The position numbers and the translations under genes are program-made. 64,000 bases of DNA, from NCBI GenBank assembly GCA_030041495.1, contig JASHNT010000092.1, positions 1 to 64,000 of the forward strand. The letters are read 5' to 3'. The DNA is from Bryobacteraceae bacterium (lineage in GTDB: Bacteria; Acidobacteriota; Terriglobia; Bryobacterales; Bryobacteraceae). Below are positions 1,469-22,536 of the stretch, one piece after another. The notes below the pieces were generated by a model that had not been told where the DNA came from, ran no database searches, and worked only from the letters and a program-made list of their open reading frames with translations. The stretch's first letter is position 1; the number at the start of each line of letters is the position of its first letter.

Positions 1469-1531
1469 ATGTCTAAGCAAGTTCTGCGCAGTTTGATTAT
1501 TTTGGCGGCCGCATCTGTGTTTCCGGCGTAA
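1469..1531 (+). pseudogene. Signal-peptide stub of a gene cut by an IS66-type end
   Basis: An ATG at 1469 has a good ribosome binding site (AGGGAG, 1455-1460) and encodes MSKQVLRSLIILAAASVFPA, a basic N-terminus followed by a hydrophobic core, as in a Sec signal peptide. The frame then stops at TAA (1529-1531), and this TAA lies inside GTAAGCG, the typical outer sequence of IS66-family elements. The rest of the secreted protein is not visible in this frame. The likely reading is a secreted protein gene interrupted by a transposon; the lost product cannot be named. Confidence 0.6.
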
Positions 1532-1585
1532 GCGCCCGGTAAACACCAAGACACACCGAGCGGCTGGGTTTGCGATGGCTGGGAC

Positions 1586-2800: not shown

Positions 2801-2895
2801 CCCTTCAAAAAATCGATCTCCAGGGCCTGCTGACCGATCTTAAGCTCCGGCTCCGCGATCCGGCCTTCGCTCCAGCGCTGCTTCCCGCTACCAGT
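2716..2895 (-). pseudogene. IS3-type orfA C-terminal remnant
   Basis: On the minus strand a 59-codon frame without a start reads QRWSEGRIAEPELKIG, then ALEIDFLKGCLQRIE, ending in KSKKK and a stop at 2716. This is the leucine-zipper-like tail of IS3-family OrfA, which normally precedes and overlaps OrfB in another frame. It overlaps the start of the chimeric transposase downstream, matching IS3 organisation. The N-terminal helix-turn-helix half of OrfA is missing: the frame meets a stop at 2896-2898. Confidence 0.6.
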
Positions 2896-2970
2896 TCAGG
2901 ATATCGTCAGTAGGGAGCCAAAAAGGCCTTGAGATTGAAGTCCACGGAGACGATTGCCGGCCGGCCCGCT

Positions 2971-3564
2971 CTACAGTTGCGGACGCTGCTTCGCCGTCTT
3001 CGTCAGGAGTACTGGACAGTCAAAGAGGCGGCCGATCTGCTCAAAGGGCTCTTCCGCACTCTTGAGGGCGTGCCGCTGTAACTGGGTGAGGTAGTCGAAG
3101 GCATTGGCGCCCGCCAGTTCACAGGAGTGAATCATCTCTCCCAGCGGACCCTCCCGGAACTTGCGCACCTTTTCGTCCAACGCCGCGCACAACTGGCTCA
3201 CCTGGCCCGCCGAGACACCCGCGATGCCCAACTCTTCCAGGACCGCTTCGATCTTGCGCGTGGACACGCCCTTCACCACCGCTTCCTGGATCACGCTGAT
3301 CAGCGCCTGTTCGCTACGCTTGCGGTGTTCGATGAAGCTCGGCACGTAGCCGCCTTCGCGCACCTTCGGCACCTGCAACTTCAGCGTTCCCAGCCGCGTG
3401 TCCCAGCGCCGCTCCCGGTGTCCGTTGCGATGCGTCGTTCGTTCCGCACTTCGCTCGTGCGCCTAGGCACCCACTTTGGCCGTTACTTCGGCCTCCATCA
3501 CGAAGTCGGTCAGCAACTCCGCCATCGCCCGCAATGGGTCCTCGGCGCTCGCCGCCGTCTCCAT
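2971..3564 (-). pseudogene. Degraded IS256-type transposase fused to an IS66 tail
   Basis: From an ATG at 3564 the frame reads like the N-terminus of an IS256 (mutator-type) transposase: AMAELLTDFVMEAEVTAKVG, then an amber stop (3463-3465) where the family continues into HERSAERTTHRNGHRER. After the stop the frame goes on with LQVPKVREGGYVPSFIEHRK and GVSTRKIEAVLEELG, all IS256-like. Around base 3100 it switches to MIHSCELAGANAFDYLTQLQ, which is the C-terminal end of IS66 TnpC proteins. The IS256 DDE catalytic region is absent. So it carries both a nonsense codon and an in-frame chimeric junction; it cannot encode a working transposase. Confidence 0.7.
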
Positions 3565-3731
3565 TGCTTGCTTGCCAGCTTATTCTGTCTTTGGCCATCC
3601 GTTTTTAGCTCCTTACGTGAAAGTCGGGATACTTCCACTGGAGCCAGCAGCGGCTGGCCTTTGTGAAGCCCTCAATTTACACCCTCAATTTTACGCGGCC
3701 GGATACTTGCCAAAAGCAGCGCCTTGCAAGT

Positions 3732-3896
3732 CTAGCATTTGTGTTCCGCGACGTGGTGGTCCAATTGTTCGCGCGCGCGTTCAACTTGCTCAGCCGCGCA
3801 ATTGTCGGTCTCGGCGGAGGGGTGAGGACGAGCGGCAATGGCCTCGTCGAGTACCAGGAGCAACCGCTGTTTTTCGTCGCACATGAAGTCCAGCAT
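3732..3896 (-). CDS. Small hypothetical protein
   Basis: A minus-strand frame of about 54 codons (longer, 79 codons, if the GTG at 3971 is used) encodes an acidic, Leu/Ala/Glu-rich peptide containing MCDEKQRLLLVLDEAIAA and VERAREQLDHHVAEHKC, likely helical. No family is recognised. It lies just downstream of a two-membrane-segment gene on the same strand. ATG at 3896 was chosen as a minimal start; no clear ribosome binding site decides it, though GGAGGAG lies ~20 bases upstream. Amino-acid composition is protein-like, but the call is weak. Confidence 0.3.
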   Translation of the reverse strand: MLDFMCDEKQRLLLVLDEAIAARPHPSAETDNCAAEQVERAREQLDHHVAEHKC

Positions 3897-3930
3897 AACA
3901 ACCAGATCCGCGAGCTCTCCTCCGTACCAG

Positions 3931-4131
3931 CTACTTGAATGGCCCGGAGAAAAACCAAAGCATGAGAGCACCGATGATCACAATGCTCATGCCGACGTGC
4001 CAGGCGATGCTGGTTTCATCATTTGTGTTGGTCGAAAGGAGAAGCGCCAGGACCGCAATTGCCGCGATCCCAACCACCCATCGTTGCGAGCTGAGTCTGC
4101 GCACCTGGCTGCCGCCCAAGCTTATCACCAT
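3931..4131 (-). CDS. Small two-segment membrane protein
   Basis: The 66-residue product has a basic N-terminus, a hydrophobic segment at ~19-32 (VVGIAAIAVLALLL), a short polar loop and a second segment at ~46-61 (GMSIVIIGALMLWFF), ending in SGPFK. This is the layout of a small inner-membrane hairpin protein. No family is recognised. It lies among transposon remnants, upstream of a possible small hypothetical gene on the same strand. Confidence 0.45.
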   Translation of the reverse strand: MVISLGGSQVRRLSSQRWVVGIAAIAVLALLLSTNTNDETSIAWHVGMSIVIIGALMLWFFSGPFK

Positions 4132-4435
4132 GCGACATGCACTCCATAAGTCTTTCGATTAAACGTTTCGATGGGACGAATCGCGAGGGCATCCGCCTCG
4201 GCCTGGATCGCGGGCCGGTATCAGCTCCAGGGCGGGGCTGCGATGGAAGCAGCCGTCGAAATTCCACCTCGTGCACGAGGAGCGATTTGGATCCCGTGAA
4301 CGGAGCGTGCGGCCGGCTCACCCATCTTCGGAGCACGCGTCTACAATGGCCAAATTACCGGCAAATAACGATCGGTGGGGCTATGGCAGCTATGGCGCGT
4401 TCGGGCCGATCCTAAACGTGATAACATGGCGCGTC
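4132..4435. other. Non-coding stretch upstream of DUF2846 gene
   Basis: No convincing gene is seen. Frames on both strands here lack a recognisable motif or a ribosome binding site. It separates the minus-strand membrane-protein gene from the plus-strand DUF2846 gene, so it should hold the promoters of both; no clear -35/-10 pair could be picked by eye. Confidence 0.3.
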
Positions 4436-4924
4436 ATGAAAGCTACAGTAACTCTGTCGGCTCTTTTGATCGGTATCTTTTCTGCTGTTTCCGTTGCGAA
4501 TGCCCAGCAGCCCGCAGTATCTCAGCAGGCGAGTAGCGCAGAACGTCAACCCACGCCATCGTCCCCATCTGCAGGCAAGGCACTAATCTACGTTTATCGG
4601 GTCGGGAGTATCGTTGGTGCAGCTGGATATGACAGAATTTTCGTCAACACTGATTACTTGGGCGCGTTGCATAACTCCGACTACGCGCAACATGAGGTGC
4701 CACCGGGCACGGTCATTTTCAGTACGCTATCGAGGCTTAACAGCACGTTCATTGGGCAGGCCGAGCTGATGAAATTGCAAAAACAGGCAAAAGAGAAGCT
4801 CCGGATCGAAGTGGAAGCGGGGAAGACATACTATATCAAGTGGTCTGTCGGGGGTAAGATGAAGTTGGTTGATGCGACCATTGGAGCCAAAGAGATGAAG
4901 GGCCTTCACATCGCCAAGGATTGA
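4436..4924 (+). CDS. DUF2846-like secreted protein
   Basis: ATG 4436 is chosen because it begins a clear signal peptide (MKATVTLSALLIGIFSAVSV, cleavage likely after ANA); the frame is open further upstream but that part is not protein-like. The mature part contains GKALIYVYRVGSIVGAA, HEVPPGTVIFST and VEAGKTYYIKW, the pattern of DUF2846 proteins, usually envelope proteins of unknown function. There is no lipobox Cys at the cleavage site. A Gln/Ser/Pro-rich linker separates signal and domain. The adjacent DUF3489 gene starts 39 bases downstream on the same strand. Confidence 0.65.
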   Translation: MKATVTLSALLIGIFSAVSVANAQQPAVSQQASSAERQPTPSSPSAGKALIYVYRVGSIVGAAGYDRIFVNTDYLGALHNSDYAQHEVPPGTVIFSTLSRLNSTFIGQAELMKLQKQAKEKLRIEVEAGKTYYIKWSVGGKMKLVDATIGAKEMKGLHIAKD

Positions 4925-4963
4925 TGTGGAGAAGGCGGGCCCCAAGGTGTTCGGACCCAGAAG

Positions 4964-5218
4964 GTGCCCACGGGCGCGAAGAGAGCCAAACGTGGCAACG
5001 ATGGCAAGGGAGCCCGGGAGGGTAGCAAGACCGCCAAGGTTCTGGACTTGCTGAAGCGGCCAGGCGGCGTCACCGCGGCGGAACTGCTGAAAGCGACCGG
5101 CTGGCAGCCGCACAGCGTGCGCGGATTCCTGTCCGGGACGATTGGCAAGAAGATGGGCTTGAGGGTGATCTTCGCCAAGGGCGAGGAAGGGGAGCGAACC
5201 TACTCCGTCGAAGCCTGA
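4964..5218 (+). CDS. DUF3489 domain protein
   Basis: GTG start at 4964 gives an 84-residue basic protein. A Lys/Arg/Gly-rich N-terminus (~1-22) is followed by the DUF3489 core: VLDLLKRPGGVTAAELLKAT, GWQPHSVRGFLSG and KKMGLRVIF. This family resembles a winged helix-turn-helix and is common next to mobile elements; its role is not established, DNA binding is inference. A paralogue lies at 19653-20057 with the same core and the same kind of terminator. A strong hairpin terminator begins 25 bases after the stop. Confidence 0.75.
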   Translation: MPTGAKRAKRGNDGKGAREGSKTAKVLDLLKRPGGVTAAELLKATGWQPHSVRGFLSGTIGKKMGLRVIFAKGEEGERTYSVEA

Positions 5219-5242
5219 TTCTCCACGGTTCTGCCTACGTCG

Positions 5243-5277
5243 CGCCGCCGAGTTCCGACTCGGCGGCGTTTCTCGTT
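5243..5277 (+). terminator. Rho-independent terminator after DUF3489 gene
   Basis: A perfect 10-bp stem (CGCCGCCGAG 5243-5252 with CTCGGCGGCG 5259-5268), a 6-base loop and a T-rich tail TTTCTCGTT. It lies directly downstream of the DUF3489 stop codon. Confidence 0.8.
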
Positions 5278-5295
5278 GTGGGGCCCCGGATACAC

Positions 5296-5566
5296 TGCGA
5301 AAGTGGCTGCGCCCAGGATGAACAGATTTGGGTCGCGGCTCTCGAATCCGCGATTCGCGCAGTAAGGCGCTGCGCCGCGGCTATGCTGGCCATCGCAGGG
5401 AGCGTTAGATTGGCTCGGCACGGATCCTCGTGGTATTGGTAAAGCGTGGCTCATCGCTCAAGCTGCTGTTGGCCGCTGCTCGGTGAAGGAGCACAGCACA
5501 GCCGATTCCGGTTTAGGAACCCATTGCGAAAGTGGCTGCGCCCAGGACGAACAGATTTGGGTCGCG
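5296..5566. repeat. 42-bp direct repeat, two copies, in a gene-free stretch
   Basis: TGCGAAAGTGGCTGCGCCCA begins a 42-base unit at 5296-5337 and again at 5525-5566. The copies differ at one base (T/C at the 28th position). The 187 bases between them and the flanks (5278-5635 overall) hold no convincing gene. The second copy ends ~70 bases before the IS630 element. Confidence 0.7.
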
Positions 5567-5636
5567 AAGAATCGTATCGAATCGGCCAGTACGAGCTGCT
5601 AGCCGAAAATCCCGGCGTTACTTTTCCGCAGCCTGC

Positions 5637-6615
5637 TAGTGTCCTGACCCAGAAGTCCGCGTAACAACTAGCGATGCCGCCGCGTCTCTCTTACTATGGA
5701 GAACGTTGCGATGCAAACAGGCCGTCCCATTCCGGTGTTGCGTCTGAGCGAGGCGGAACGAGAGACGTTGCAAAACTGGGCGCGGCGGCCGAAGTCAGCG
5801 CAGGCATTGGCGCTTCGGGCGCGGATCGTGCTGCGCTGCGCGGAAGGCGTCACCAACACCGAGGTGGCACGACAGATGGGAGTCAGAAAGGCAACCGCAG
5901 GCAAGTGGCGACAGCGTTTTGTGGACCGGCGCCTGGATGGTCTGCTGGATGAACCGCGCCCGGGTGCGCCGCGCAAGATCACGGATGCCGACGTGGAGCG
6001 TGCGCTCGCGATGACCTTGGAATCGACTCCGAAAGATGCCACGCATTGGAGCACTCGATCCTTGGCCAAGGAGGCCGGGTTGAGCCGAACTACGGTAGGC
6101 CGCATCTGGCGCGCCTTCTCCTTGCAGCCGCATCGAAGTGAGACGTTCAAGCTTTCCAAGGACCCTCTCTTCATTGAGAAGGTGCGGGACATCGTGGGCC
6201 TGTACCTAAATCCGCCGGATCGGGCGCTGGTGCTATGCGTGGACGAAAAAAGCCACGACACCATTGAACAAGCCGTCCCATCCGGCCTGGACGTGCATCT
6301 CATCGTCGACAACTACGGCACGCATAAGACCGTGCTCATCCGCCGTTGGCTTGCCAAGCGTCCCCGCTTTCATGTTCACTTCACACCCACCAGCGCCTCC
6401 TGGATCAACCTGGTCGAGCGCTGGTTTGCGGCGCTTACGGAGAAACAAATCCGGCGCGGGGTCCACCGAAGCGTGCGCGAGTTGGAATCTGCCATCAAGC
6501 AATATCTCGCCGCTACCAACGAGTCTCCCAAGCCCTTCATCTGGACCAAGACGGCCGATGAAATCCTTGCCAGCGTGGCCCGCTTTTGTGCGTGGACTTC
6601 TGGGTCAGGACACTA
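5637..6615. mobile_element. IS630-family insertion sequence with terminal inverted repeats
   Basis: The element runs from 5639 to 6613 (975 bp) and is flanked by a TA duplication (5637-5638 and 6614-6615), as expected for the IS630/Tc1 group. The ends are near-perfect inverted repeats: 5636-5661 matches the reverse complement of 6591-6616 at 25 of 26 bases, starting CTAGTGTCCTGACCCAGAAG. The target is CTAG on both sides. One transposase gene fills the element. Confidence 0.9.
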
Positions 6616-6616
6616 G
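5696..6616 (+). CDS. IS630 transposase with an in-frame internal deletion
   Basis: The N-terminal half holds the helix-turn-helix region (LRCAEGVTNTEVARQMGVRK) and the linker typical of IS630. The DDE triad is visible as D183 (VLCVDEKS), D205 (HLIVDNYGTHK) and E241 (SWINLVERWF). Between S186 and H187 the family normally has a further ~60 residues (from QIQALDRTQP to the PRHRHQEFLRFL region); these are missing, yet the frame is kept. The protein is 306 residues instead of ~360. The stop codon TAG (6614-6616) is made from the TA target duplication plus the flanking G. Probably inactive because spacing of the first two Asp residues is wrong. Confidence 0.85.
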   Translation: MENVAMQTGRPIPVLRLSEAERETLQNWARRPKSAQALALRARIVLRCAEGVTNTEVARQMGVRKATAGKWRQRFVDRRLDGLLDEPRPGAPRKITDADVERALAMTLESTPKDATHWSTRSLAKEAGLSRTTVGRIWRAFSLQPHRSETFKLSKDPLFIEKVRDIVGLYLNPPDRALVLCVDEKSHDTIEQAVPSGLDVHLIVDNYGTHKTVLIRRWLAKRPRFHVHFTPTSASWINLVERWFAALTEKQIRRGVHRSVRELESAIKQYLAATNESPKPFIWTKTADEILASVARFCAWTSGSGH

Positions 6617-6703
6617 GCCGCCATAAAAATAGTTCGCGTTGGCGTCAGGCGGGATGGTGCCGGCGGCAGAGGCCAAACTGGTCAACGGGCCCACTCCCCG
6701 GAT

Positions 6704-7123
6704 TTGCTGCCAGATGTCCAAGGTGAACTCTCGGTGAAAATCAACGGAAAAACGAGCATTCTTCATCGGGGCGAGTCGGCCGTCGTCGAGGCGAATGTAT
6801 GGCACGACTGGTGGAACGAGACGTCCCGCGATGTGCACGTGCGACTGGAGGTCACACCGGGTTTGCGATTCGCGCACATGATTGAGACTTTCTGGGGTTT
6901 GGCTCGGCTGGGGCACACAAACAGAAAGGGCATTCCGTCTCTGCTGCAGCTCGCGGTAAGCGCCCGCGAGTTTAGCGACACCATCGTGCTCCGCAAGCCG
7001 CCGCTTGTGGTGCAGAGGTTGATCTTTGGTCCACTGTCATGGTTCGCTCACTGCCGCGGCCATCGCGCCACCTACCCGCAACTCTCGCGCATCGCGCTGG
7101 CTCCGCGAGTTCCGCGAATTTAG
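6704..7123 (+). pseudogene. 5'-truncated cupin-domain gene
   Basis: From about 6716 the frame reads GELSVKINGKTSILHRGESA and VWHDWWNETS, the second half of a small cupin domain (the metal-site His of the second motif is in VWHDWW). The helical C-terminal tail common to these ~170-residue proteins follows, ending near HRATYPQLSR. The first cupin motif (the HxH...E half) is absent upstream, and no good start exists. The truncation point lies within ~100 bases of the IS630 element, so transposition damage is a likely cause. Confidence 0.55.
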
Positions 7124-7628
7124 TGAGGAGCGAAGAATCACGCAGCACCAAATCAGCGATCGGCATGGGCAAGAAGGTCGTTTCGGACTGTATTCTAAGG
7201 ATTCCAAGGCGCGCCCATCGGCGCCAGCAAGAATCTCAGTGCTCGGCAGTACCAGGGCCTAAAGTGAGACCAGCAGTGCGCGCCGAGCCAGAGCGTTCGT
7301 CCGCAATTACATCCACCGTCTCCCATGGCGGCCGCTCATGCTTCTTACCCAAAAGTTGACCCGCCCCGGTGTTTCTGCGAAACATAACCGAGGAACTCGG
7401 TTTACGCCCTCTAGAGGCGTTATCGGTGCTTCAACCGGCCCCTTGATGTTCCTTCGAGAACGGAGGTATCGTGCACATGAAATAGGAGGCGATATTGCCC
7501 AACATCGGTCGCCAATTCGGAACAGAGGATCTCGCGTTTTGCGCGCTCCCGATGAGGTCGGCAGTCCAAGCAGGCCAGAAGCCTGCCCCAGGTCAATGGA
7601 ACACGCGCCAAAATCTACTGGGAAGGGT
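7124..7628. other. Gene-free stretch between cupin remnant and Wadjet operon
   Basis: No supported gene. At 7386-7420 two hairpins lie in tandem: AACCGAG/CTCGGTT with a 3-base loop (7386-7402), then ACGCC...GGCGT around CTCTAGA (7404-7420). They could end transcription from either side but have no T-run. The stretch lies downstream of jetD, the last gene of the minus-strand operon. Confidence 0.3.
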
Positions 7629-8786
7629 TCAGCAAGCATTCAGGAGATCCCAAGCTTCATCCCACGAGATCCGTTCTTGCTCCAGTCGAACACTGAGACC
7701 CCATCGATGTTGACGCAGCCCTTTGTAGACTGCCTGTTCTGCAGGCGTCAGCAAGGGCAGACTCCCCGTATGTTGGTTGTCCTCCCGCACCCATAGATCC
7801 CGGTTCTTCACAAGCGTAGATTCGTCCATGAGAACAGACCTCAGCTTTGGCAAGATGGCACGCCCGTGGTTCAGGATGGCGAATCCATGTGTATCGAGAT
7901 CACCCCAGTACACGCACTCCGCTGACGCCACCCACGGCACCTCTTCCAGGCTGCTGATACCATATCCCAGCCCCATGAACACAATGGAGCCCGGCCGCTC
8001 GCTGAAACACAAGCCGGTCTGAACGTTTTCCACGATGTACACCCTGGACACAGGAAGCTGCATTTGCGCGATCTCGTTAATTGGAGCGGTTATGTCGCCA
8101 AGCCCCGCAACGTGAAAACGAAGGTCTCCGTGAAGTAGTCGCATCCGCACCGTGGCGGGCGGTTTGCGCAATCCGCACCGCTGATAGAACCCTAGGCCGG
8201 CACAACTCCCGGACTGCAAGGCAGCAATCAGGTCCGCCATGAGGCCCATTCGCGTCTCCAGCCACTTCGTGTCCAGGCCGGGCAAAGGAATTTGGCGCGG
8301 ATACAAATTGGAAAGTGGATGAGACTCAATCCAAGCCACCAACTCTTTGAGCCGGAACATATCCTGATCGGTGTAGTCCGTAAGTGCGTCAGAATGTCGA
8401 GTGACACAAACCGCCAGTACGGGCCAGCGCTGCACGATTTCGCAATACCGGGATAGCGTCTTGTCCCATCTTTCTGCCTCGCCAATGAGCACGGCGACAG
8501 CGCGAGCATCCTTCAGGATCAAACGTTCCGGTGCGGTTTGCACGCCTAGGCTGCGCCATTGGCGCTCGCGCCAGACTAGATCGCCAGGGCTAACCCACGC
8601 ACGCCATGCGGAGACCCAGTCCTGAACCGACTGAGGTTGCATTTGTACGTCCGCCTCGGTCGGACGACCCAGCGGTAGCTCTAGCGGCCAGACACCGTTC
8701 CCGGCCAGCCACTCGCGGTGCTGGTTCCGATACCGCCGCGCGCAGAGCGCTGTTATATCGTCAGGAAACTGCAGCGCCCGCTTCAT
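7629..8786 (-). CDS. jetD: Wadjet system nuclease subunit JetD
   Basis: 385 residues, the usual JetD length. The N-terminal half matches the DUF3322-type region and the C-terminal half the DUF2220 region, which carries a Toprim fold related to topoisomerase VI/Spo11. The Toprim acidic residues are visible: E253 in VYIVENVQTG, and D296/D298 in VYWGDLDTHGF. In characterised Wadjet systems JetD is the nuclease that cleaves extruded circular plasmid DNA. It overlaps jetC by 26 bases and is the last gene of the operon. The reaction is established for the family; activity here is inference. Confidence 0.9.
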   Translation of the reverse strand: MKRALQFPDDITALCARRYRNQHREWLAGNGVWPLELPLGRPTEADVQMQPQSVQDWVSAWRAWVSPGDLVWRERQWRSLGVQTAPERLILKDARAVAVLIGEAERWDKTLSRYCEIVQRWPVLAVCVTRHSDALTDYTDQDMFRLKELVAWIESHPLSNLYPRQIPLPGLDTKWLETRMGLMADLIAALQSGSCAGLGFYQRCGLRKPPATVRMRLLHGDLRFHVAGLGDITAPINEIAQMQLPVSRVYIVENVQTGLCFSERPGSIVFMGLGYGISSLEEVPWVASAECVYWGDLDTHGFAILNHGRAILPKLRSVLMDESTLVKNRDLWVREDNQHTGSLPLLTPAEQAVYKGLRQHRWGLSVRLEQERISWDEAWDLLNAC

Positions 8787-11700
8787 CGTAGGATCTGGTC
8801 GGAAGATTCAGGCGTTTCCGTTCAGCGTCGTATTCGATCATCAGGACGCTCGAGTGACGACGTTCAGTGATGTCCACAAAGCACGCGCCGCCGATAAATG
8901 GCTCCAGTGTCATCACGGACTTCAGAGGCGTGGCCACGATCATCTGAAAGCCGAAACTGGCGAAGATATTCATCACCAGTGCAGTAAACTCGTTGTCCGC
9001 TTTGTCAAAGGCCTCATCGAGAACTACGGGCGCGTACTGCGGCAACCCATGATCGTCACCACCCAACTGATAGCGCAGTGCCGCGGCGAGACAAGTAGTG
9101 GCAAGCTTCTGCCGTTGGCCTCCCGACTTTCCCGAACCGCCTCGATACACTTCCACTTGGACGCCATTGATATCCATCTCACGCCCGATGAAATCAACGT
9201 GCTGCCGGACATCCAGTACAAGTGTGCGCCACCGCTTCTGTTCGGATTCCTGGCCGCCAAGGCGCTCGACTAGCCGGCGCAGGATTAGAAACCGTTCCTC
9301 GGCTTGCTCACGGTCATCGCTCCAGGCGTGACTCAGCGCCCGCTGGATCTCCTGTTTGAATTCGCGAACGTCGTCAAGGTTTCGGTCGGTGGGATCGATA
9401 TGCAAGTACGTCCCCGGCCCAAACTCGGCCTTGCTCAAGCTGTCATTGACGAGATTCAAGCGGTCGAAAATTGTCTTACGAGCCTGGTTGAGGTGAGTTG
9501 AAAGAGCGGCCAGATTTTGATGACTCTGGTTTCGGAGGAGGTCGAAGAAGCGCTCCTCGTAATCCGGCAAGCGGTCGGATTCCAGCCGCCTGAGCTTGGC
9601 GAGAAAGTCTGACGCGGAGGCCAGCGAATCGTCAACATCGGCGGCGTCGGCTGGCCAGCGCCGCTTGAATTCGGAGAAGCGCCGTTCAATGGCTTTGGCT
9701 GCCTGATTGCGCGCCTCGGCCAGTGAATCCATTTCTTCGCTAAGTTTCTTGTCCACTCTATGAGCTTGCTCGTCAAGACGTTCCAAGGTAAGCGACTGGC
9801 CAAGGCCGTCGAAGTACTTAGACAATTCGGCTCCCTGAGCATCGCTAAGTGCGGACGAGTGGTTGCGCAGTGCGCTCAAGTCGGAAGCGTATTTCTTCAT
9901 CTCCTTTTCGGTCCCGCCAACCTGCGATTTTACTTCGATGAGAATTTGACTCGCGCGATTCACAAGTGCCGTTTGTGCCTCGATACGCCTCGCGAGCTCC
10001 CCAAGAACGGTATTGCCCTCCTGCAATTCGCGAAGCTTCTTGTCTATCGCGTTGATCCTCTCCAGCACGGGCCGGGCGTCCAGTTCCTGCCACTGCAAGT
10101 TGACGAGAGTCTGGCAGTTCAATGCCCGCTGCCTGCGATTATCGTCCTCGGCCTTCAAGGAACGCATATCGCTTCTGCATCGTTCGATTCCAACCCCAGC
10201 ATCCTGCGCTTTTCGCTCAAAAAGCGCGCGTTTTGCCCGGTTGTCGAAACCGAGCACCCAACGGCTACGATCATTTAGATCGCGGCGATCGTCCTTTTCG
10301 TGTCTGTCCTTACCGTGACGCACCTGTCCTTGGCGGGTGACCGCTTTTTCTGAGTTTCTAAATGCCTGCATGGAATCGACGCAAGCATAGTCAAAACGTT
10401 GAAGTAAGGTGCTGCGCAGGTAGCCCAGGAACGTGCCTTCCTTGATTTGCAACTTATAGATAAGCGAATTCGGCTGACGAGACTGAACCGGTTGCACCTG
10501 ATCCCGTCCGACACGATTGTAAAAGAGGCGCTCGCCCCTGAGAAACGTTCGGTTGACGTATTCAGACACGGCTGGATAGTGGCGCTCTTCAACGAGCAAC
10601 GAGAGCGCAAATCCGCCCAGCACTCGCTCGATCGCGCCCCGCCATCCCTCCTCCTTAGGCAGTACTTCCATAAGCTCAGCCGCGAACGGCAACGCTGCCT
10701 CGGCAAGCCCCAGTTCCTCCGTAAGGGTGGCGCGAAGTCTCAGCATATTCGCCGGCACGTTCGAGGGCTGCCGAAGTAGTGACTCCACCTCGTCCCTGGC
10801 CTCCGAGAACTCCTTTTCTAGACCGGCAAGGTTCGCCGACAAAGCCGCATACCGATCTCGTGATTTCTCCTGCCATTCTCTCCACTGCTCGATTTCCTGT
10901 TGTGCGGCGTTAACCAACGAGGCGAACTCCGCGGGCTGGTCTGGAAGCAGCCAGCCGAGCTGTTCGCACGTGCGCTGCGCTTTGCCACGTTTGCTAAGGG
11001 ATTCGTCCCGGCGGATCGCGAGATCCCGTCTTTCGCGCTCCAACTGTTCGATCTGCAAACCGCCGGCTTCGAGACGCTGGCGTTGTAGGTCTTTAAGGTC
11101 GGCTTCACGGTTGTTGAGCTCAGCGGCTTTGCTCTGTTCCTCCGCCCTCCTGACGTTAAGCTCATCCTCTAACTCTGCGATGCGCTTCTGGAGAAGACCA
11201 GCCCGAAGCGCTCTCTTATAGCTGTCCAATCCGGAACGCAAGTCGCTCAGTTCCTTCTCGCGACGCGCAAACGCCCCGAATCTTAGATGTTCTTCGCGCG
11301 CCGGTACCAAGATTTGTATCTGTTCGCGCGCAGTGACCACGGCCTGGTGGGCGGCATTGAGCTCAGCGAACTCTGTCACCAGCCGGTCGGCTGCCTCGAA
11401 GGTCTCCGGTCGGTCCAGCATGAAATCTCGCAGGAACGTATTCAAGTCGCCCAGATTCTTCGCGGATTGAGTCCTGTGCAGGAGTTTGAGCGCCAGCTCG
11501 TTCTCGATGCCCAAGCGGCGGCAGAATCGTTCCGCGTAGGGAGCAAAGTCTTCCCGTGCGAAAACGTCGGGAAGCTTTTGCTTCATTTTACGCACGTCGA
11601 GTTGAAAGTCGCTGAGGGCCCTCAAGTCGAAGGGGCGGTCGAAGATTAGGTAATGTCGGCGGAGGTCTTCGCGGTTATTGGACTTCCCACGAATCCAGAA

Positions 11701-12081
11701 GAGCTGAACCAACACCACCGTTTCGGCCGCATCATTGCAATAGGTCAGTGCAAGTGCAGACCATGTGGTACCCGTGCGGAGATACCGTGTGACGATTAAG
11801 CCCGAGTCATCGTCTTGCTGTTCTGCCCAGGCCCCGCGAACGTAGCTGAGCAGGCTTCGATCGCGGCTGCCGCGTTCTCCCTCCCGCGCCGCGGCGTTAA
11901 AGTCCACCCACTTGGGCGGTACCAATAAAGTCGAAAAGGCATCCAGGAGCGTGGTTTTTCCGGTGCCCGACCGCCCTACGAAGAGAAATCCACGCTCCGC
12001 AATCGGAATGTCGTGAATATTTGAGAAGGTGCCCCAATTGTAGACCTGGAGTTTGGCGATACGGAACTGTGCGGTGCTCAC
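8761..12081 (-). CDS. jetC: Wadjet system SMC-like ATPase JetC
   Basis: 1106 residues with MukB/SMC-like layout: Walker A at 36-44 (GRSGTGKTT), long coiled-coil arms rich in Glu/Arg/Leu with a central hinge-like region, an ABC signature at ~986 (SGGQRQK) and Walker B at ~1019-1028 (VVLDEAFDKAD). In Wadjet, JetC with JetA and JetB forms a loop-extruding condensin-like motor that detects small circular DNA. Its start overlaps the end of jetB by 4 bases (ATGA), indicating translational coupling. All ATPase motifs look intact. Confidence 0.93.
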   Translation of the reverse strand: MSTAQFRIAKLQVYNWGTFSNIHDIPIAERGFLFVGRSGTGKTTLLDAFSTLLVPPKWVDFNAAAREGERGSRDRSLLSYVRGAWAEQQDDDSGLIVTRYLRTGTTWSALALTYCNDAAETVVLVQLFWIRGKSNNREDLRRHYLIFDRPFDLRALSDFQLDVRKMKQKLPDVFAREDFAPYAERFCRRLGIENELALKLLHRTQSAKNLGDLNTFLRDFMLDRPETFEAADRLVTEFAELNAAHQAVVTAREQIQILVPAREEHLRFGAFARREKELSDLRSGLDSYKRALRAGLLQKRIAELEDELNVRRAEEQSKAAELNNREADLKDLQRQRLEAGGLQIEQLERERRDLAIRRDESLSKRGKAQRTCEQLGWLLPDQPAEFASLVNAAQQEIEQWREWQEKSRDRYAALSANLAGLEKEFSEARDEVESLLRQPSNVPANMLRLRATLTEELGLAEAALPFAAELMEVLPKEEGWRGAIERVLGGFALSLLVEERHYPAVSEYVNRTFLRGERLFYNRVGRDQVQPVQSRQPNSLIYKLQIKEGTFLGYLRSTLLQRFDYACVDSMQAFRNSEKAVTRQGQVRHGKDRHEKDDRRDLNDRSRWVLGFDNRAKRALFERKAQDAGVGIERCRSDMRSLKAEDDNRRQRALNCQTLVNLQWQELDARPVLERINAIDKKLRELQEGNTVLGELARRIEAQTALVNRASQILIEVKSQVGGTEKEMKKYASDLSALRNHSSALSDAQGAELSKYFDGLGQSLTLERLDEQAHRVDKKLSEEMDSLAEARNQAAKAIERRFSEFKRRWPADAADVDDSLASASDFLAKLRRLESDRLPDYEERFFDLLRNQSHQNLAALSTHLNQARKTIFDRLNLVNDSLSKAEFGPGTYLHIDPTDRNLDDVREFKQEIQRALSHAWSDDREQAEERFLILRRLVERLGGQESEQKRWRTLVLDVRQHVDFIGREMDINGVQVEVYRGGSGKSGGQRQKLATTCLAAALRYQLGGDDHGLPQYAPVVLDEAFDKADNEFTALVMNIFASFGFQMIVATPLKSVMTLEPFIGGACFVDITERRHSSVLMIEYDAERKRLNLPTRSYDEAGAAVS

Positions 12082-12779
12082 AACTCCATCTCCTCACCCT
12101 GCGTTTCCGAGGCAGACGCCAACTTAGGTCCATCGGAGGCTATTTGCCGGTAGATTTCGGTCAGCGCGAGAATGGCCTCAGCGGAGAACAGCAGTTTTAG
12201 TGTGGGCGAGATCTCGAAGCGATCATCCGTCGATCGAACTTTTTGAAGGATACTGTGTTTCTTGATTTTTTCAATCGATGCTTGAATCCGCTTGGTGAAT
12301 CCAGCGCGGTCCGTGTTCGCCGCTCGCTCATAGACCGATAGGTGATCGGTCATTTCATTGGATGAAACGACGGCACGCTCGCTCTGCGCGTCGGCTTCCA
12401 TCAACTTCTGCCGTAAGAACAATAGCAGCGCGGAGTCTAGAAAAGTGAGATGCGCGACCCTTAGCAGCGCGGGCGCTTCCAGGTCGCCTACATCCGCTTT
12501 TCGAGTGAATGCTACTTGAAGATGGTTATCGATAACCAACTCGAGAAATAGCTCGTTCAACCGGCGGCGCACGATCTGTTCGTCCCGGACGAGTGTGGGC
12601 CAGAGTTTGGAATGGCGCCTAGCGTCCAGAAAAGGTCCAGCGAGTAACTGGGCCAGCACTCTGCGCGTATCCAGTGGCAGCTCGCCCGTATCTCCTGCAA
12701 ACAGACCCGCCTCCGCCGCTTCATTGAGCGCAACAGACTCTCCCACAGATTTATGGCGCTCCATATCAGACGAGTTCAT
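12078..12779 (-). CDS. jetB: Wadjet system kite-like subunit JetB (DUF4194)
   Basis: The ATG at 12779 (MNSSDMERHK) is chosen: it overlaps the jetA end by 14 bases, while the longer frame to 12896 would overlap by 131. This gives 233 residues. The body resembles DUF4194 proteins: VLAQLLAGPFLDARRHSKLW and VRRRLNELFLELVID, followed by winged-helix-like segments near LTFLDSALLLFLRQKLM. JetB is the MukE-like partner that bridges JetA and the JetC heads in the motor complex. Confidence 0.88.
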   Translation of the reverse strand: MNSSDMERHKSVGESVALNEAAEAGLFAGDTGELPLDTRRVLAQLLAGPFLDARRHSKLWPTLVRDEQIVRRRLNELFLELVIDNHLQVAFTRKADVGDLEAPALLRVAHLTFLDSALLLFLRQKLMEADAQSERAVVSSNEMTDHLSVYERAANTDRAGFTKRIQASIEKIKKHSILQKVRSTDDRFEISPTLKLLFSAEAILALTEIYRQIASDGPKLASASETQGEEMEL

Positions 12780-14226
12780 GGATTCGTTCTCGCAAAAAGT
12801 AAATGGACGGAATCCTTGCTCTGCGGTCCAGGTCATCTCGACCGCGCCATTCCACGATCTCCTTCCCCCCAGCCGGGACGCCGTGGCGGCTACCAAGTGC
12901 CAAGTACCCTACTACTGTCCCGAGCCCCTGCGAAGCGGGAAAAATCGCGAGTATCTCCGCAATCGATGCCTGAGAGCGCTCCGTCAGAACCGCCCGGATA
13001 CTCGCTTTCAGCCCACCGAAGTCGATCTCGGACTGCGCAACGAGCTCGGCAACCGATTCCAGTGCGATCGTCGGCGCATCGGCATCGCACATTCCATCTG
13101 GGAGGGCTTCGATCGAGGGATCTAAAAGAGACCATTGAGAAAGCGAACTCAATCGGCTGCTCGTCAGCGGAAGGATGAATTTCACTTCCTCCGTCGTCCG
13201 GATTTCATCCTTCAACGATAGGGCCGCACGTTGGGCTTCTTTCAGTAACTGTTGAATACGGCGCTGCTCCAGGTATTCCCGGCTCTGGACAAAGCGTTTG
13301 AGGCTACCAGCAAACTGCTGTAAGACGTCATGCACCATCCCGCCTTGACTTAGGAGGGTTCGGGTCAGCGCCAGTAAAAAGCGCCGTTCCCTCATCTGCA
13401 ACTGGCCAGCGAATCCGCGAGACATTACGTGTTCCAGAGCGTCGTCAAGCACGGTGCTTTGTTCGGGATCAGTAAGCAGCCGCCAAAAAGCGTAAAACGT
13501 ACGCCCAGCTTCGCTTTCCGCGATCAGGTCGACTCCGGCGAAGAGGCGTTCCAAAACGTCACCGCGTCCGGTTTCGTCGTCCATGAGACGTTCGCGCAGT
13601 TCGTGGTTCAAACGCTCAAAATCATCCCGAACGCGACGGAAATCGCCTGTCAGGCCATCGGCCAAGGCGATAATCTCACGTATGCGTTCGAGCGCCTGAG
13701 CATCGGTCAACGATTCCACACGACCGCCGCGAATCTCTTCGATCTTGCGATCCAGCCGCTGCCGCTCTGCCACAAGATTGGCGGCCCGAGACTCCGGATT
13801 CGTATCGGAATCCTCGGCTAGCTTTACCAGTTGCTGAATGACAACAGCCAACCGACTCTCAGTAGCGGCAACGCGCGGCTCAGCAAGCCCCGCCACAAAC
13901 CGGATGACGGTAGCCGAGGCTGATGAGAGTTCGTACTCCTCCTCGGAAGCGCCAGCAGGGAAACGACGTTCGAGAAAACCATCACGTAGCCATTCGGAGA
14001 TATACGCTTGCGGAGGTTGCGGTAAGTCCTCGCCTCGGCCGCGCAGCTCTTCCAGGTCGCGACCAATCCGCTCGTGAAGCACGGAGGCTGGAAGGCGCTG
14101 CTCGGCCTCGAACAGGTGGGCTTGAAGAAGTCCAACGATGATCGGCCCATTCCGGGCAGAGAGTAACCTCCAGACCGGCTGTTCTCGGAGTTGGCGGCAA
14201 GCTGATATGTACTTGTCTGCCTTCAT
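12766..14226 (-). CDS. jetA: Wadjet system kleisin-like subunit JetA (DUF3375)
   Basis: 486 residues, the expected size of DUF3375 proteins. Recognisable stretches are ISACRQLREQPVWRLLSARN near the start, then FEAEQRLPASVLHERIGRDL, and a middle segment DETGRGDVLERLFAGVDLI. JetA is the MukF/kleisin-like subunit that closes the JetC ring. It is the first gene of the jetABCD operon. The 269 bases upstream (14227-14495) must hold the promoter; no clear boxes were identified. An integrase gene lies on the far side on the same strand. Confidence 0.9.
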   Translation of the reverse strand: MKADKYISACRQLREQPVWRLLSARNGPIIVGLLQAHLFEAEQRLPASVLHERIGRDLEELRGRGEDLPQPPQAYISEWLRDGFLERRFPAGASEEEYELSSASATVIRFVAGLAEPRVAATESRLAVVIQQLVKLAEDSDTNPESRAANLVAERQRLDRKIEEIRGGRVESLTDAQALERIREIIALADGLTGDFRRVRDDFERLNHELRERLMDDETGRGDVLERLFAGVDLIAESEAGRTFYAFWRLLTDPEQSTVLDDALEHVMSRGFAGQLQMRERRFLLALTRTLLSQGGMVHDVLQQFAGSLKRFVQSREYLEQRRIQQLLKEAQRAALSLKDEIRTTEEVKFILPLTSSRLSSLSQWSLLDPSIEALPDGMCDADAPTIALESVAELVAQSEIDFGGLKASIRAVLTERSQASIAEILAIFPASQGLGTVVGYLALGSRHGVPAGGKEIVEWRGRDDLDRRARIPSIYFLRERIHELV

Positions 14227-14495: not shown

Positions 14496-15731
14496 TTAGT
14501 TCACCGCCGCGTTGGCGTCTTCTTGCGGCGTAACCGTGTGCCTGTTCATGAAGTCATCCCAGCGACGGGCGGCCTCCTGGTCGCGCCCGCGGAGCGCGTG
14601 GGAGTAGACGTCGGCCGTCACGCGGACCGAGGAGTGCCCCAATCTCTCGGACACCGTTGCCAGGTCCACGCCGTCGGCCAGTAAAACCGAACCGTGGCTG
14701 TGGCGCAGCGTGTGAAGGCTGACCCCCTTCGGCAGACCGAGCTTGCGGCACAGCAGTGAAATAGACGCCGATAACGTATCCGGCTTCAATGGCGTGCCGT
14801 CAGGGTTCGCGAAAATCAGGTCGAGGTCGGAGCGGTAGCCGGCCCCAAGCTTTCGGCGGAACTTTTCCTGCTCCTGGCGGTGCTGCTTGAGTGCGCCCAG
14901 AATTGATTCCGGAAGGTTCACTCGCCGCGAGCGGTCCGTCTTCGTACCTTTGAACTGAAGCCCGGCCTTAGTCTGACTAAGAGACCGCCCGATGACCAAG
15001 TCGCGTCCATCGATGTCCGCCCACCGGAGCGCCAGTGCCTCGCCGCGTCGCGCGCCGGTGGCCGCGAGCAACTGCAGCAACCTCCGCATGCACCAGGGGC
15101 CATTCGCCGAGTTGATGAGCAGCATCTGTTCGGACGGCAATAATGCTTTGCCTTCGCGCTTCCTCGGCACCGGCGGCTCGCTGTTGGTTACCGGGTTGGT
15201 GGTGACCAGTCCCCACTTCACCGCTCGCAAAAACGCGCTGGACACGACGCCGGCCGTGCAGCGGACGGTCTTCGCTGACAACGCGCGTGGAGTTTTGTCT
15301 TTCCGCGTACGGCCGCCAGACTGAAGAAGCCGGTTCCATTCGCGGTTGAGATGCAGCGGTGTAATATCCGCTAGCGGCATCGCCAGCAGCTCCGGATCGA
15401 GGATGCCTGCCCATTGCCGGTATCGCTCCGCACTTTTCGCAGCCAGTTTCTTATCGACGTGTCGAGAGAAAAATTCTTCTAGAAGCATTGCCAGCGTCTT
15501 TGGTGGAGCGGCCGCGACGCCGACGCCGGCCTTGGCCAGTTCCTGTTTCTGCAGTTCCTCGGCGCGCCGCTTTGCCTCGGCTTCCTCGGCATCGCGTTTG
15601 GTCGCGAACCCAAATTGGCGAACCGGCAGAACTCCACGCTTCGCCCCCGGTGGCTGAAATTTGAAGTACCACAGGGCCGTTCCCGATCTGTACTTTCGCT
15701 TGTAGACTGCCATCGGTTCGTTCGACACCAT
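14496..15731 (-). CDS. Tyrosine site-specific integrase
   Basis: The ATG at 15731 is preceded by AGAGG at a good distance, while the frame further upstream is Pro/Arg-rich and unlikely to be coding. The product has an N-terminal Arm-like domain (KRKYRSGTALWYFKFQPPG), a core-binding domain and a catalytic domain with the tyrosine-recombinase residues: Arg in ATGARRGEALALRW, His-x-x-Arg in SLHTLRHSHGS, His in SERLGHSS and the nucleophile Tyr in TADVYSHALRG. All five are present, so it looks active. It reads away from the island genes at 16-24 kb. It most likely inserted that island. Confidence 0.92.
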   Translation of the reverse strand: MVSNEPMAVYKRKYRSGTALWYFKFQPPGAKRGVLPVRQFGFATKRDAEEAEAKRRAEELQKQELAKAGVGVAAAPPKTLAMLLEEFFSRHVDKKLAAKSAERYRQWAGILDPELLAMPLADITPLHLNREWNRLLQSGGRTRKDKTPRALSAKTVRCTAGVVSSAFLRAVKWGLVTTNPVTNSEPPVPRKREGKALLPSEQMLLINSANGPWCMRRLLQLLAATGARRGEALALRWADIDGRDLVIGRSLSQTKAGLQFKGTKTDRSRRVNLPESILGALKQHRQEQEKFRRKLGAGYRSDLDLIFANPDGTPLKPDTLSASISLLCRKLGLPKGVSLHTLRHSHGSVLLADGVDLATVSERLGHSSVRVTADVYSHALRGRDQEAARRWDDFMNRHTVTPQEDANAAVN

Positions 15732-16117
15732 CCATACCTCTGGTCCCGCTCGGAAGTCCACTTCGCTGGCCGAACTTGGGGCCCTCGCACGGCACGCCCC
15801 GGCCACGCGCCCGGCATTACGCCCGCCCCCCGGCGCCGTGTGCCCTGACGGAGGGCCTTCGGGGGCTCGCTCCGACGGAAGGTTTGGCGGCCAGATGGGC
15901 GCAGATGGGTGCAGATGGGTGGAATTTGAAAAAAATTCTGGTAGTCCTGGGGGCGGCAGCGGCCTGGTACCTACCCCGCGCATGTCTATGAAAAACCGTG
16001 CCTAAGAGCGTACAGAGTAAGCCTCAAACCGCCCCGAAAACGTGCACAGAACGCAAAAACCGCTCCCAAACCATCCAAAGAACGCAAAATGCGTTGAATA
16101 ACCGTACGTTCTTCCGT

Positions 16118-17395
16118 ATGGTTGAACACGTGGAACGCCTTTTCTATTCCACCGGCCAGGTCGCCACCCAACTTGGAGTCAGTCTGGCTACCGTCCGCCT
16201 CTTGTGTGAAAACCGCGTCATCGGAGCCGAAATGACTCCCGGCGGCCAGTGGCGCGTGCCAGCCTCCGAGGTCGAGCGCCTGAAACGCGACGGCCTGCCC
16301 ATGGTTCCGCGCCCTCTGCCTATTGAAGCCGCCCCGAACGAAGAGCCGGAGCCCGCGACCGAAGTCTCCGTTGAAGTTCTGTCCGCACAAGACAGTGTGG
16401 CCATCGCCAGGAGCACGCTCGAAAAACGTAGGATTGACCGCGAGATCGAGGAAAACGAAGAGTGGTTCCGCGATCGCCAGCGTCAGCACCAGGCGGCCGT
16501 GGTCTTGGAGCGCCAAAAAGCCGATGCCCAGTTGGCCGCGCAATGGCGTCAGCAGTGGATGCACAAGTGGAAAAAATATGCGCTTGATTCCGTGCCGTAT
16601 GCGGCGCGCAACGAAGTTGAGCTGGAAGTCCACGCCGCGGTGACTTCGGCACTGTCGGTGCTCCACGCCTCCGATCCGGAAGCGATCACAAAACGCCTGG
16701 TTGATGCCGCCGTGCGCAAGGCACTTCGACCCTGGCAACGTAAACAGGACGTCCAGCACGCTCTGAAGTCTGCGATGAACCGGCTGCCGTGGGACGTTCA
16801 GAACAAGCCCGAATGGGCTGGCTTGAAGAAGATCGCTTGGGATGCGGCAGCAGAAGCTGTCGGAAAACTACACGAAGAGGCGACCCATCGGGAGATGGCG
16901 GACGTGGCAGAGCAAGCAGTGCAGCCGGTGATCCGGCTATTTGAGCACGCGCAGACTTGCGAGCGAATAGCGACGTGGGTGTATGTTCTCGGCGCCACTG
17001 CTGAGGAGGCGGAAGCGGCCAAGGAATCAGTACGCAAGGCTCTGTTGGCGCTGCCTGTCGGAACGGCATCACCCGAACTGGAAAAAGCAAAGGAGACGGC
17101 TCTCGCGCCGCATAAGGCGGCCGTGGCTCAACGGAAAGAAACCGCCCGGCTGGAGTCGGAGAAGCAAGCCAGGCGGCGCGCTGCAGAATGCAGGGTCAAC
17201 GGCCAACTCCATCACATCGAGCGATACCTGGATCAGGAGTACGAATTCGATGGTGGCTATGCCGAGTTGCGCGCGGAAGCGAATCGGCTGCGGCTTCCGA
17301 TTTGGAAGGCGCTAATCGAGGAAATCCTAAAAGACCCAGGCATGAGCGACGACGCGATCCGCAATCAGATCGAACGACACATCGACCGTGACTGA
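16118..17395 (+). CDS. HTH/excisionase-headed coiled-coil protein of unknown function
   Basis: From ATG 16118 the N-terminus (~7-55) resembles MerR/excisionase-type winged helices: FYSTGQVATQLGVSLATVRL, then WRVPASEVERLKRDGLP. After a Pro/Glu linker come ~330 residues rich in Ala, Glu, Lys and Arg, probably long helices or coiled coil. The family of the C-terminal part is not recognised. An imperfect inverted repeat (AACCGTACG 16100-16108 and CGTATGGTT 16115-16123) spans the start codon and could be an operator. The frame is open back to a GTG at 15998, so a longer form is possible. It is divergent from the integrase, the place where excisionase or regulator genes usually sit. Confidence 0.6.
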   Translation: MVEHVERLFYSTGQVATQLGVSLATVRLLCENRVIGAEMTPGGQWRVPASEVERLKRDGLPMVPRPLPIEAAPNEEPEPATEVSVEVLSAQDSVAIARSTLEKRRIDREIEENEEWFRDRQRQHQAAVVLERQKADAQLAAQWRQQWMHKWKKYALDSVPYAARNEVELEVHAAVTSALSVLHASDPEAITKRLVDAAVRKALRPWQRKQDVQHALKSAMNRLPWDVQNKPEWAGLKKIAWDAAAEAVGKLHEEATHREMADVAEQAVQPVIRLFEHAQTCERIATWVYVLGATAEEAEAAKESVRKALLALPVGTASPELEKAKETALAPHKAAVAQRKETARLESEKQARRRAAECRVNGQLHHIERYLDQEYEFDGGYAELRAEANRLRLPIWKALIEEILKDPGMSDDAIRNQIERHIDRD

Positions 17396-17444
17396 GTGCG
17401 ATCAACTAAGCTCCGGTTATACTGATTCCCGAAGGACTCAGCAC

Positions 17445-18029
17445 GTGAAGACGAATTCCACTAGCCTGGAGACTTTCATCCGCCGGACACAGAAGCTCAC
17501 TCGCGAACTGCGCGCGTTGATGAACCGGTACCCCGAAGATCACATGGAACCGGATCAAAGAATTTTCAATCGCCTCCTTACGACTGACTGGCGCTACTTG
17601 TCCACTTATCAGGGACCCATCGAAGTGCGGTATAGGGAGGTCGTTGACTGGATCGATCAACTAGAGAGCTATCATGCTGGACTCGTCGAGCTCTGCACGT
17701 ACGAGCTAAATGTCCCGGGGAAGCTGGGGGAGCTGCCAATGAATCCTCGGCTACCTCTTTCTGGACCGCAATGCGTGCACCAACTGGAACTTCAAATCAA
17801 GGTGCTTCGTCGGTGGCAAGAGGCGCTTGCGCCAGCCAATTCCCGGCGCACCCAAATCAGGCACGATCTCCAAATCCTGGTAGACGAGCGCGGGGCCAAA
17901 ACCGTCGCCGCCGAGATCCCGGTTAACATCGATACTCTGCGAGACTTGCTCGCAGAAAAGACGAATCCTCACGGGGAGACGATGAAATCCATCGCCTCGT
18001 ATCTCAAGCGGCAGAAGTCAAATGGCTAG
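17445..18029 (+). CDS. Hypothetical island protein with possible C-terminal HTH
   Basis: GTG 17445 follows GAAGGA at a usable distance; a TATACT hexamer at 17418-17423 could be a -10 box. The 194-residue product is mostly helical, with RRTQKLTRELRALMNRYPED near the start. The last ~45 residues (ILVDERGAKTVAAEIPVNID, LRDLLAEKTNPHGET) look like an XRE-type helix-turn-helix, though weakly. No family is recognised. It follows the coiled-coil HTH gene by 49 bases on the same strand. Confidence 0.5.
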   Translation: MKTNSTSLETFIRRTQKLTRELRALMNRYPEDHMEPDQRIFNRLLTTDWRYLSTYQGPIEVRYREVVDWIDQLESYHAGLVELCTYELNVPGKLGELPMNPRLPLSGPQCVHQLELQIKVLRRWQEALAPANSRRTQIRHDLQILVDERGAKTVAAEIPVNIDTLRDLLAEKTNPHGETMKSIASYLKRQKSNG

Positions 18030-18237
18030 AGCGCGTTGCACGGACCCAGTCCGGCCCCGTGGCGCTTTCACGTCTTAAACAGTCTCCAAATTTCTCCGCC
18101 GGCTCGTCTGATTCCTCCGCAACCTCTCCGTAAAAATCGCGTAGCTTCGCCGGGAACCATTTGAGATTCTCATTTCAGGATCACCGCTGCTGTAACGGCA
18201 GCGCGAGCCAGGAACGAGTTGAACGGCAGACAGCAGG

Positions 18238-19533
18238 ATGAAGGACCTCAGCATTCAAATCGAGCACTGGCCGATCGAAAGGCTGGTCCCGAGCAAGACC
18301 AACCCCCGCACGCACACTCCCGAGCAGATCGCTCAGATCGGCGCCTCGATCGGCGAATTCGGTCTCGTCAACCCGATCCTTGTCGCACCTGACGGCGCGA
18401 TCATCGCGGGTGCGGGACGCTACCGGGCAGCTCTGACGCTTGGCATCCACGAGGTTCCGGTGATCGTGCTTCCGCACCTGTCCGAGACTCAACGCCGGGC
18501 CTTGCGAATTGCGGATAACCAGATCGGACTCAACGCTGGTTGGGATGAGCAGCTTCTCCGGGAGCAGTTGGCCGCACTGGGAAGCGACAGCTTCGATCTC
18601 ACCCTCCTTGGTTTCGAGGACGAGGAATTGGCACGCCATCTGGCCGATCCGGATACCGCCGGGCTTTCCGATGAGGACGATGTTCCAGAGCTTCCCGTTA
18701 ATCCCGTCACCCGCTCCGGCGACCTTTGGATCTTGCGCTCCGGTGGCACTCGAACCCACCGTGTGCTCTGTGGTGATGCCACCAATAAGCAAGACGTGGA
18801 GCGGTTGTTAGAGGCCCATCCCAAGCCTGTCCTCATGGTCACCGACCCTCCGTACGGCGTCGCCGTCGCACCGGAATGGCGGGAAAGAGCAGGTCTTAAC
18901 TCGCGGACCCGTCAGGCCGGCAAGCTGGAAAACGATACCCGAATCGACTGGTCCGAAGCTTGGCTTCTGTTTCCCGGCGCCGTCGTTTACGTCTGGCATG
19001 CCGGCATTCACGCAGTCGAAGTCGCCCTGGGCCTCCAACAAAGCGGGTTTGGCATCCGATCGCAACTTATCTGGGCGAAGCAGCACTTTGCGATCTCTCG
19101 CGGGGCCTACCACTGGCAGCACGAGCCTTGCTGGTACGCCGTGCGTAAAGGTGAAGATGCGCACTGGCATGGCGATCGCACACAGACGACCCTGTGGGAG
19201 GTCGCAAACCTAAATCCCTTCGGCGGCAAAGCCTTCGGCGAAAACGAAGCTACCGGTCACGCCACGCAGAAGCCTGTCGAAATCATGCGTCGCCCGATTA
19301 TAAACCACCTGCGGAAGGGCGAGGCTTGCTATGACCCATTCTTGGGAAGTGGAACGACTCTGATCGCCGCCGAGAGTAGCGGCCGAGTTTGCTGCGGCAT
19401 AGAGATCGATCCGCGCTTTGTAGATGTAGCTGTTCAACGTTGGCAGGAGTTCACGGGCAAACCGGCAGTGCTCGACGGCGACGGCCGAACGTTCGAGCAG
19501 GTTGCCCGCGCGCGACGGAGGAAGCTTGCATGA
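18238..19533 (+). CDS. ParB-like/DNA methyltransferase fusion protein
   Basis: Residues ~8-90 form a ParB/Srx-like domain (PIERLVPSKTNPRTHTPEQI, VNPILVAPDGAIIAGAGRYR). From ~160 the protein is an amino-methyltransferase of the N6-adenine/N4-cytosine group: RSGDLWIL and RVLCGDATN, motif IV DPPYGV at 203-208 and the SAM-binding motif DPFLGSGTT at 366-374, so motif IV precedes motif I as in beta-class enzymes. Such fusions are common on prophages and plasmids, often without a cognate restriction enzyme. No restriction partner is directly adjacent. The target base and site cannot be read from sequence. Likely role: protection of the element's own DNA or regulation. Confidence 0.88.
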   Translation: MKDLSIQIEHWPIERLVPSKTNPRTHTPEQIAQIGASIGEFGLVNPILVAPDGAIIAGAGRYRAALTLGIHEVPVIVLPHLSETQRRALRIADNQIGLNAGWDEQLLREQLAALGSDSFDLTLLGFEDEELARHLADPDTAGLSDEDDVPELPVNPVTRSGDLWILRSGGTRTHRVLCGDATNKQDVERLLEAHPKPVLMVTDPPYGVAVAPEWRERAGLNSRTRQAGKLENDTRIDWSEAWLLFPGAVVYVWHAGIHAVEVALGLQQSGFGIRSQLIWAKQHFAISRGAYHWQHEPCWYAVRKGEDAHWHGDRTQTTLWEVANLNPFGGKAFGENEATGHATQKPVEIMRRPIINHLRKGEACYDPFLGSGTTLIAAESSGRVCCGIEIDPRFVDVAVQRWQEFTGKPAVLDGDGRTFEQVARARRRKLA

Positions 19534-19594
19534 ACACGCTGAGATCCAGAGCGAAAGTCTCCATGGTAAGTGCGGGACCGCAACTCGGCCATGA

Positions 19595-19629
19595 CGGAGA
19601 AAGGCCGCCGAGGCAGAACCTCGGCGGCC
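19595..19629 (-). terminator. Rho-independent terminator of the second DUF3489 gene
   Basis: An 11-bp perfect stem (GGCCGCCGAGG 19603-19613 with CCTCGGCGGCC 19619-19629), 5-base loop, followed on the minus strand by CTTTCTCC. It lies 23 bases beyond the stop of the minus-strand DUF3489 gene and closely resembles the terminator at 5243. Confidence 0.75.
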
Positions 19630-19652
19630 CGCAAACGAGGACGAATGGTGCT

Positions 19653-20057: not shown

Positions 20058-20158
20058 TTTGATTTCTCCTTGAGCGGTGATTACCGCGATCACATGAGTC
20101 CCTCACTTCCTGGCGGATTGCAAGCAGAATCTTTTCAACTCGGGGAAGGAGGCACCAC

Positions 20159-22526: not shown

Positions 22527-22536
22527 CGTCTTATAT

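Follow-up and report, generated by a model that had tools for sequence, protein, structure and literature searches.

A type I Wadjet operon, complete and probably functional, beside an integrase in a Bryobacteraceae bacterium and most likely acquired by horizontal transfer

Organisation of the locus

Inspection of the open reading frames in the window, by which we mean the whole 64,000-nucleotide stretch of DNA analysed, revealed four overlapping genes on the minus strand at 7629–14226, arranged in the canonical Wadjet order jetA–jetB–jetC–jetD. These genes and the features to their right are as follows:

12766–14226, minus strand: jetA, MksF-like kleisin with a DUF3375 domain, 486 residues (PADLOC PDLC00460 JetA1, 635 bits; PF11855, 507 bits; PDB JetA 8dk1/8q72)
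12078–12779, minus strand: jetB, MksE-like KITE subunit with a DUF4194 domain, 233 residues from ATG 12779 (PADLOC PDLC00501 JetB1, 300 bits; PF13835, 152 bits)
8761–12081, minus strand: jetC, MksB-like SMC ATPase, 1106 residues, GTG start (PADLOC PDLC00518 JetC1, 1378 bits; PDB JetC 8dk2/8as8)
7629–8786, minus strand: jetD, MksG-like Toprim nuclease, 385 residues (PADLOC PDLC00530 JetD1, 438 bits; DUF3322 and JetD_C; PDB MksG 8b7f, JetD 8q72)
14496–15983, minus strand: tyrosine integrase of an adjacent mobile element, outside the Wadjet system (PF00589; phrog_1 integrase)
15998–20668, plus strand: phage-like remnant, not part of Wadjet, with an HTH_17 protein, a ParB-N/N6_N4 methyltransferase (18238–19533) and a terminase small subunit-like gene (20159–20668)
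21813–22730: Mrr_cat gene (Mrr-type nuclease)
24724–24798, minus strand: tRNA-Glu(CTC) (ARAGORN), predicted integration site that bounds the island on the right

The Jet genes share one strand, and jetA overlaps jetB by 14 bases, jetB overlaps jetC by 4 bases and jetC overlaps jetD by 26 bases, so that about 6.6 kb is occupied by overlapping reading frames without a stop codon or frameshift. The first of these overlaps holds for a jetB gene that starts at ATG 12779. The mechanically called jetB reading frame is longer, spanning 12078–12896 and encoding 272 residues from TTG 12896, and the PADLOC JetB1 profile match begins at residue 44 of this form. Because the same 14-base overlap with jetA is seen in relatives such as locus L039, the start codon is most likely ATG 12779 rather than TTG 12896. 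A simple scan for promoters, of the sigma70 type only, returned 4 sites against 2.6 expected by chance, none of them a convincing promoter for the operon, and terminators found by a simple scan were at chance level. An open reading frame of 110 residues on the minus strand (7307–7639) overlaps the jetD stop codon; it matches no family and has no relative beside other Jet operons, and it is probably not a Wadjet gene.

Assignment to type I Wadjet

All four type I Wadjet profiles in PADLOC match the encoded proteins over nearly their full lengths, with E-values from 1e-90 to 0. Searches with Pfam identify DUF3375, DUF4194, AAA_29 with SbcC_Walker_B, and DUF3322 with JetD_C, all far above the cut-off. 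JetA, JetB and JetC have sequence matches to chains in solved Wadjet structures, and JetD can be aligned with solved MksG and JetD chains (8b7f and 8q72). Judged by these comparisons, a four-gene match to type I Wadjet is far beyond chance.

The catalytic motifs are likewise intact and lie where the sequence-only reading of the locus had placed them. In JetC, these are the Walker A motif GRSGTGKTT (residues 36–44), the signature SGGQR (986–990) and the Walker B motif PVVLDEAF (1018–1025, with D1022/E1023); in JetD, they are E253, D296 and D298. The Walker A Gly, Lys and Thr residues, the SGG of the signature and the Walker B Asp–Glu pair are kept in essentially all aligned JetC sequences (n = 85), and the three JetD residues are conserved in 56 of 56 aligned JetD sequences. 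JetD E253 aligns with E248 of Escherichia coli JetD, the residue mutated in the 8q72 structure (E248A). The N-terminal motif through which JetB contacts JetD is IFDR in studied systems (PMC10586767); in the window and its relatives, the JetB N-terminus has a related 'LF.GD[ST]GEL' stretch, not IFDR. With type I profile matches for every subunit and none failing, and with the motifs intact, the earlier proposal of a complete Wadjet operon in the order JetA–JetB–JetC–JetD is borne out.

The operon resembles the type I Wadjet systems of E. coli GF4-3 and Pseudomonas aeruginosa PA14 in its four subunits, their A-B-C-D order, the DUF3375, DUF4194, SMC and Toprim domains and the catalytic residues. 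It differs from them in being divergent in sequence, the window JetD scoring only 42–52 bits against 7til and 8q72 in phmmer. MksBEFG of Corynebacterium glutamicum is the same four-gene system under another name, and the window JetD matches its MksG (8b7f) with an E-value of 6e-31, although the host lineages differ. Closer in sequence are the type I operons of Stutzerimonas, Comamonas, Burkholderiales and others (L039–L057, L067 and L074), with identities of 64–66% for JetA, about 58% for JetC and 50–53% for JetD and the same gene order and overlaps; these lie outside the species group of the window and do not share its flanking genes. The locus is thus another instance of a well-studied system and not a new one, and it leaves knowledge of the Wadjet system itself unchanged.

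Relatives and origin of the operon

When JetC was used to scan 84,980 species genomes, the best matches, at about 58% identity, were found in Pseudomonadota with a full A-B-C-D operon adjoining. The best JetA relative, at 66% identity, is also from Pseudomonadota, and nearly all of the closest relatives share this gene order and its overlaps. Within the phylum of the window, JetA matches are rare: a search of about 395 genomes gave 4 full-length ones, and 6 of 120 close relatives have a DUF3375/JetA match; the same-phylum JetA proteins are only 26–31% identical to that of the window. No DUF3375 match was found among the other genomes of the genus that were searched. In the JetC tree, the window sequence groups with sequences from Pseudomonadota, Thermodesulfobacteriota and Spirochaetota, and a branch of length 1.16 (SH-aLRT 100) separates this group from ten same-phylum JetC sequences. 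JetD accompanies every member of the group except one on a cut-off contig. The exact sister group of the window JetC is unsure because its end branch is long (0.63). The G+C content of the Jet genes is 0.55–0.59, against about 0.60–0.62 for native genes in the window, and their GC3 is 0.60–0.65, against 0.71–0.81.

Since the close relatives lie in Pseudomonadota, the same-phylum JetA proteins reach only 26–31% identity and the same-genus genomes searched yield none, the operon was most likely acquired horizontally from a distant bacterial lineage, although the donor cannot be named. We considered contamination of the assembly unlikely: the contig carries a permease/tRNA-Glu neighbourhood common to the genus and is therefore taken to be host chromosome. 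The suggestion that the novelty of the locus lies in its acidobacterial context is weakened, since type I Wadjet also occurs, rare and divergent, in other genomes of the phylum. An attempt to place the host phylum by 16S found no 16S gene in the assembly, and the 'Acidobacteria 31F' pattern gave a single site with one mismatch, which is not a 16S gene. With this locus, the record of probable transfers of a whole Wadjet system between phyla grows by one, the recipient being a genus that apparently lacks the system otherwise.

The flanks and the tRNA-Glu site

A tyrosine integrase gene does lie beside the operon, as the earlier reading had it, with 270 bases between the integrase stop codon and the operon. 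The tRNA-Glu gene further to the right adjoins, in genus relatives, the same amino-acid permease gene as in the window. In several of these relatives, a related integrase ends about 60–100 bases from the tRNA-Glu 3′ end, and the first 20 bases beyond the tRNA are similar to window positions 24705–24723, the element-type sequence that follows the tRNA 3′ end here. Because related integrases lie near the tRNA and the bases after it are similar in genus relatives, we take tRNA-Glu, by sequence comparison, to be a site of integration in this genus, with one such junction present in the window. The phage-like gene set is also found in genome G005 (L146), where it sits differently with respect to the integrase, indicating that the window and G005 copies of the element are mutually rearranged. 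Sequence matching window 20723–20855 adjoins the integrase start in G005 (L146) and in G003 (L149); it is about 5 kb away in the window.

Transposase genes of IS66 and IS630 type lie on the operon's left side. Sequence at 4946–5311 occurs in several copies in the genome (71–83%) and is related, in inverted orientation, to the element reading frame 19389–20165. No syntenic flank that would mark the island's left boundary was found in genus relatives, and the matches to window 1–7600 are scattered repeats and transposase pieces. Contig C96 ends in a stretch (12715–12911) identical to window positions 1–197, and its other end is 86% like window 1120–1494; a junction between the two contigs or a repeat common to both could account for this.

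The locus had also been read as a defence hotspot in which the operon lies next to an island with more nuclease-like genes. This has weak support: the island does hold one Mrr_cat gene and a phage-type ParB-N6/N4 methyltransferase gene, but most of the flanking reading frames scanned in relatives match no PADLOC family. When 20 large reading frames beside the same tRNA-Glu in genus relatives were scanned against PADLOC, 16 matched no family at 1e-5; the remainder comprise one TIR/ThsB-like gene (L024), one AbiEii gene (L025) and two weak matches (mad8 and PDC-M43B). The TIR-domain gene (L024:1767–2471) directly follows a related integrase at tRNA-Glu. A defence hotspot proper is possible and weakly supported, and these comparisons argue for a hotspot at which mobile elements integrate and defence genes are sometimes found. 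The Wadjet operon lies among mobile-element debris near this hotspot.

Proposed function and carriage

Overall, we conclude, with a probability of about 0.93 and from sequence comparison, that the locus is a complete and probably functional type I Wadjet (JetABCD, equivalent to MksBEFG) operon that arrived by horizontal transfer. From what is known of its homologues, the SMC ATPase JetC, the kleisin JetA and the KITE subunit JetB would form an ATP-driven loop-extruding motor. On a small closed circle, extrusion would run to completion, whereupon the Toprim nuclease JetD would cut, and the expected outcome is elimination of plasmids up to roughly 50–100 kb. Work on studied systems (PMC10586767, PMC10123090) describes JetABC as a sensor of DNA shape, which in the current model acts through ATP-driven extrusion, and JetD as the subunit that cuts small DNA circles. 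Nothing that we see in the genes argues against this mechanism operating here, and expression, extrusion, cleavage and plasmid restriction in this host are inferred from the homologues. Low uptake of plasmids by this organism could be explained in part by such an operon.

Two other accounts of the genes can be weighed against this one. That the complex serves mainly as an MksBEF-type chromosome condensin, with JetD vestigial, is very improbable: a sister lineage (Stenotrophomonas, some Xanthomonas and Dyella) has indeed kept JetABC without JetD, but here jetD lies intact directly after jetC, with the 26-base overlap and E253, D296 and D298 retained, and, unlike a housekeeping condensin, the operon is absent from the genus relatives searched. 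It is a little easier to imagine that the island is degraded and the defence operon within it dead, through silencing or through an inactivation that the sequence does not show, given that the operon's neighbours are transposase genes and rearranged phage genes; sitting among such decayed elements, the operon could be silent. The unbroken frames across some 6.6 kb and the retention of all invariant residues nevertheless make this account unlikely.

A further proposal concerns carriage and is compatible with a functional, horizontally acquired Wadjet: the operon may be cargo of the integrase-bearing phage-like element at tRNA-Glu, protecting that element against competing plasmids and integrative elements, rather than an independent acquisition. 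The 270-base spacing from the integrase, the fragment at 4946–5311 related to an element reading frame but lying on the operon's other side, and the element-type sequence at the right junction all favour it. We regard it as doubtful, since neither the window nor C96 has a further copy of the tRNA 3′ end beyond the operon, an 83%-identical integrase piece in G008 loses similarity at the stop codon, so that the element may end between the integrase and jetA, and Jet genes occur in none of the related elements seen (L146–L150). In a search for a second attachment site, the window matched the 3′ end of tRNA-Glu only at the tRNA itself (24724), and C96 did not match it at all; window base 1 is the start of the contig, and a lost or more distant copy is therefore possible. 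No long direct repeats flanking the operon were found. The broader idea that Wadjet travels on a phage-derived family of tRNA-Glu integrative elements in this genus and keeps out rival circular mobile DNA on their behalf is more speculative still.

JetABC operons without jetD

Operons with JetABC, intact JetC motifs and no jetD were observed in Stenotrophomonas, some Xanthomonas and Dyella, and Coralloluteibacterium (L079–L118). In these MksBEF-like operons of Stenotrophomonas maltophilia and its relatives, JetA and JetC are about 50–54% identical to those of the window; the window operon, with its intact jetD, does not belong to the class of JetABC without JetD. The S. maltophilia case has already been published, and the system described as probably inactive (PMC11680222). 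No JetD_C match was found in the seven JetD-less genomes or records tested. The JetC tree needs at least six changes between JetD-present and JetD-absent states, which suggests that jetD has been lost repeatedly. Most tblastn matches to possible JetD remnants in the JetD-less loci were discarded, the query reading frame from L107 overlapping jetC in another frame. In Dyella flagellata, 25 residues directly after jetC (L089:12242–12316; 68% identity, E 0.004) may be a remnant of the JetD N-terminus, consistent with a recent loss of the gene.
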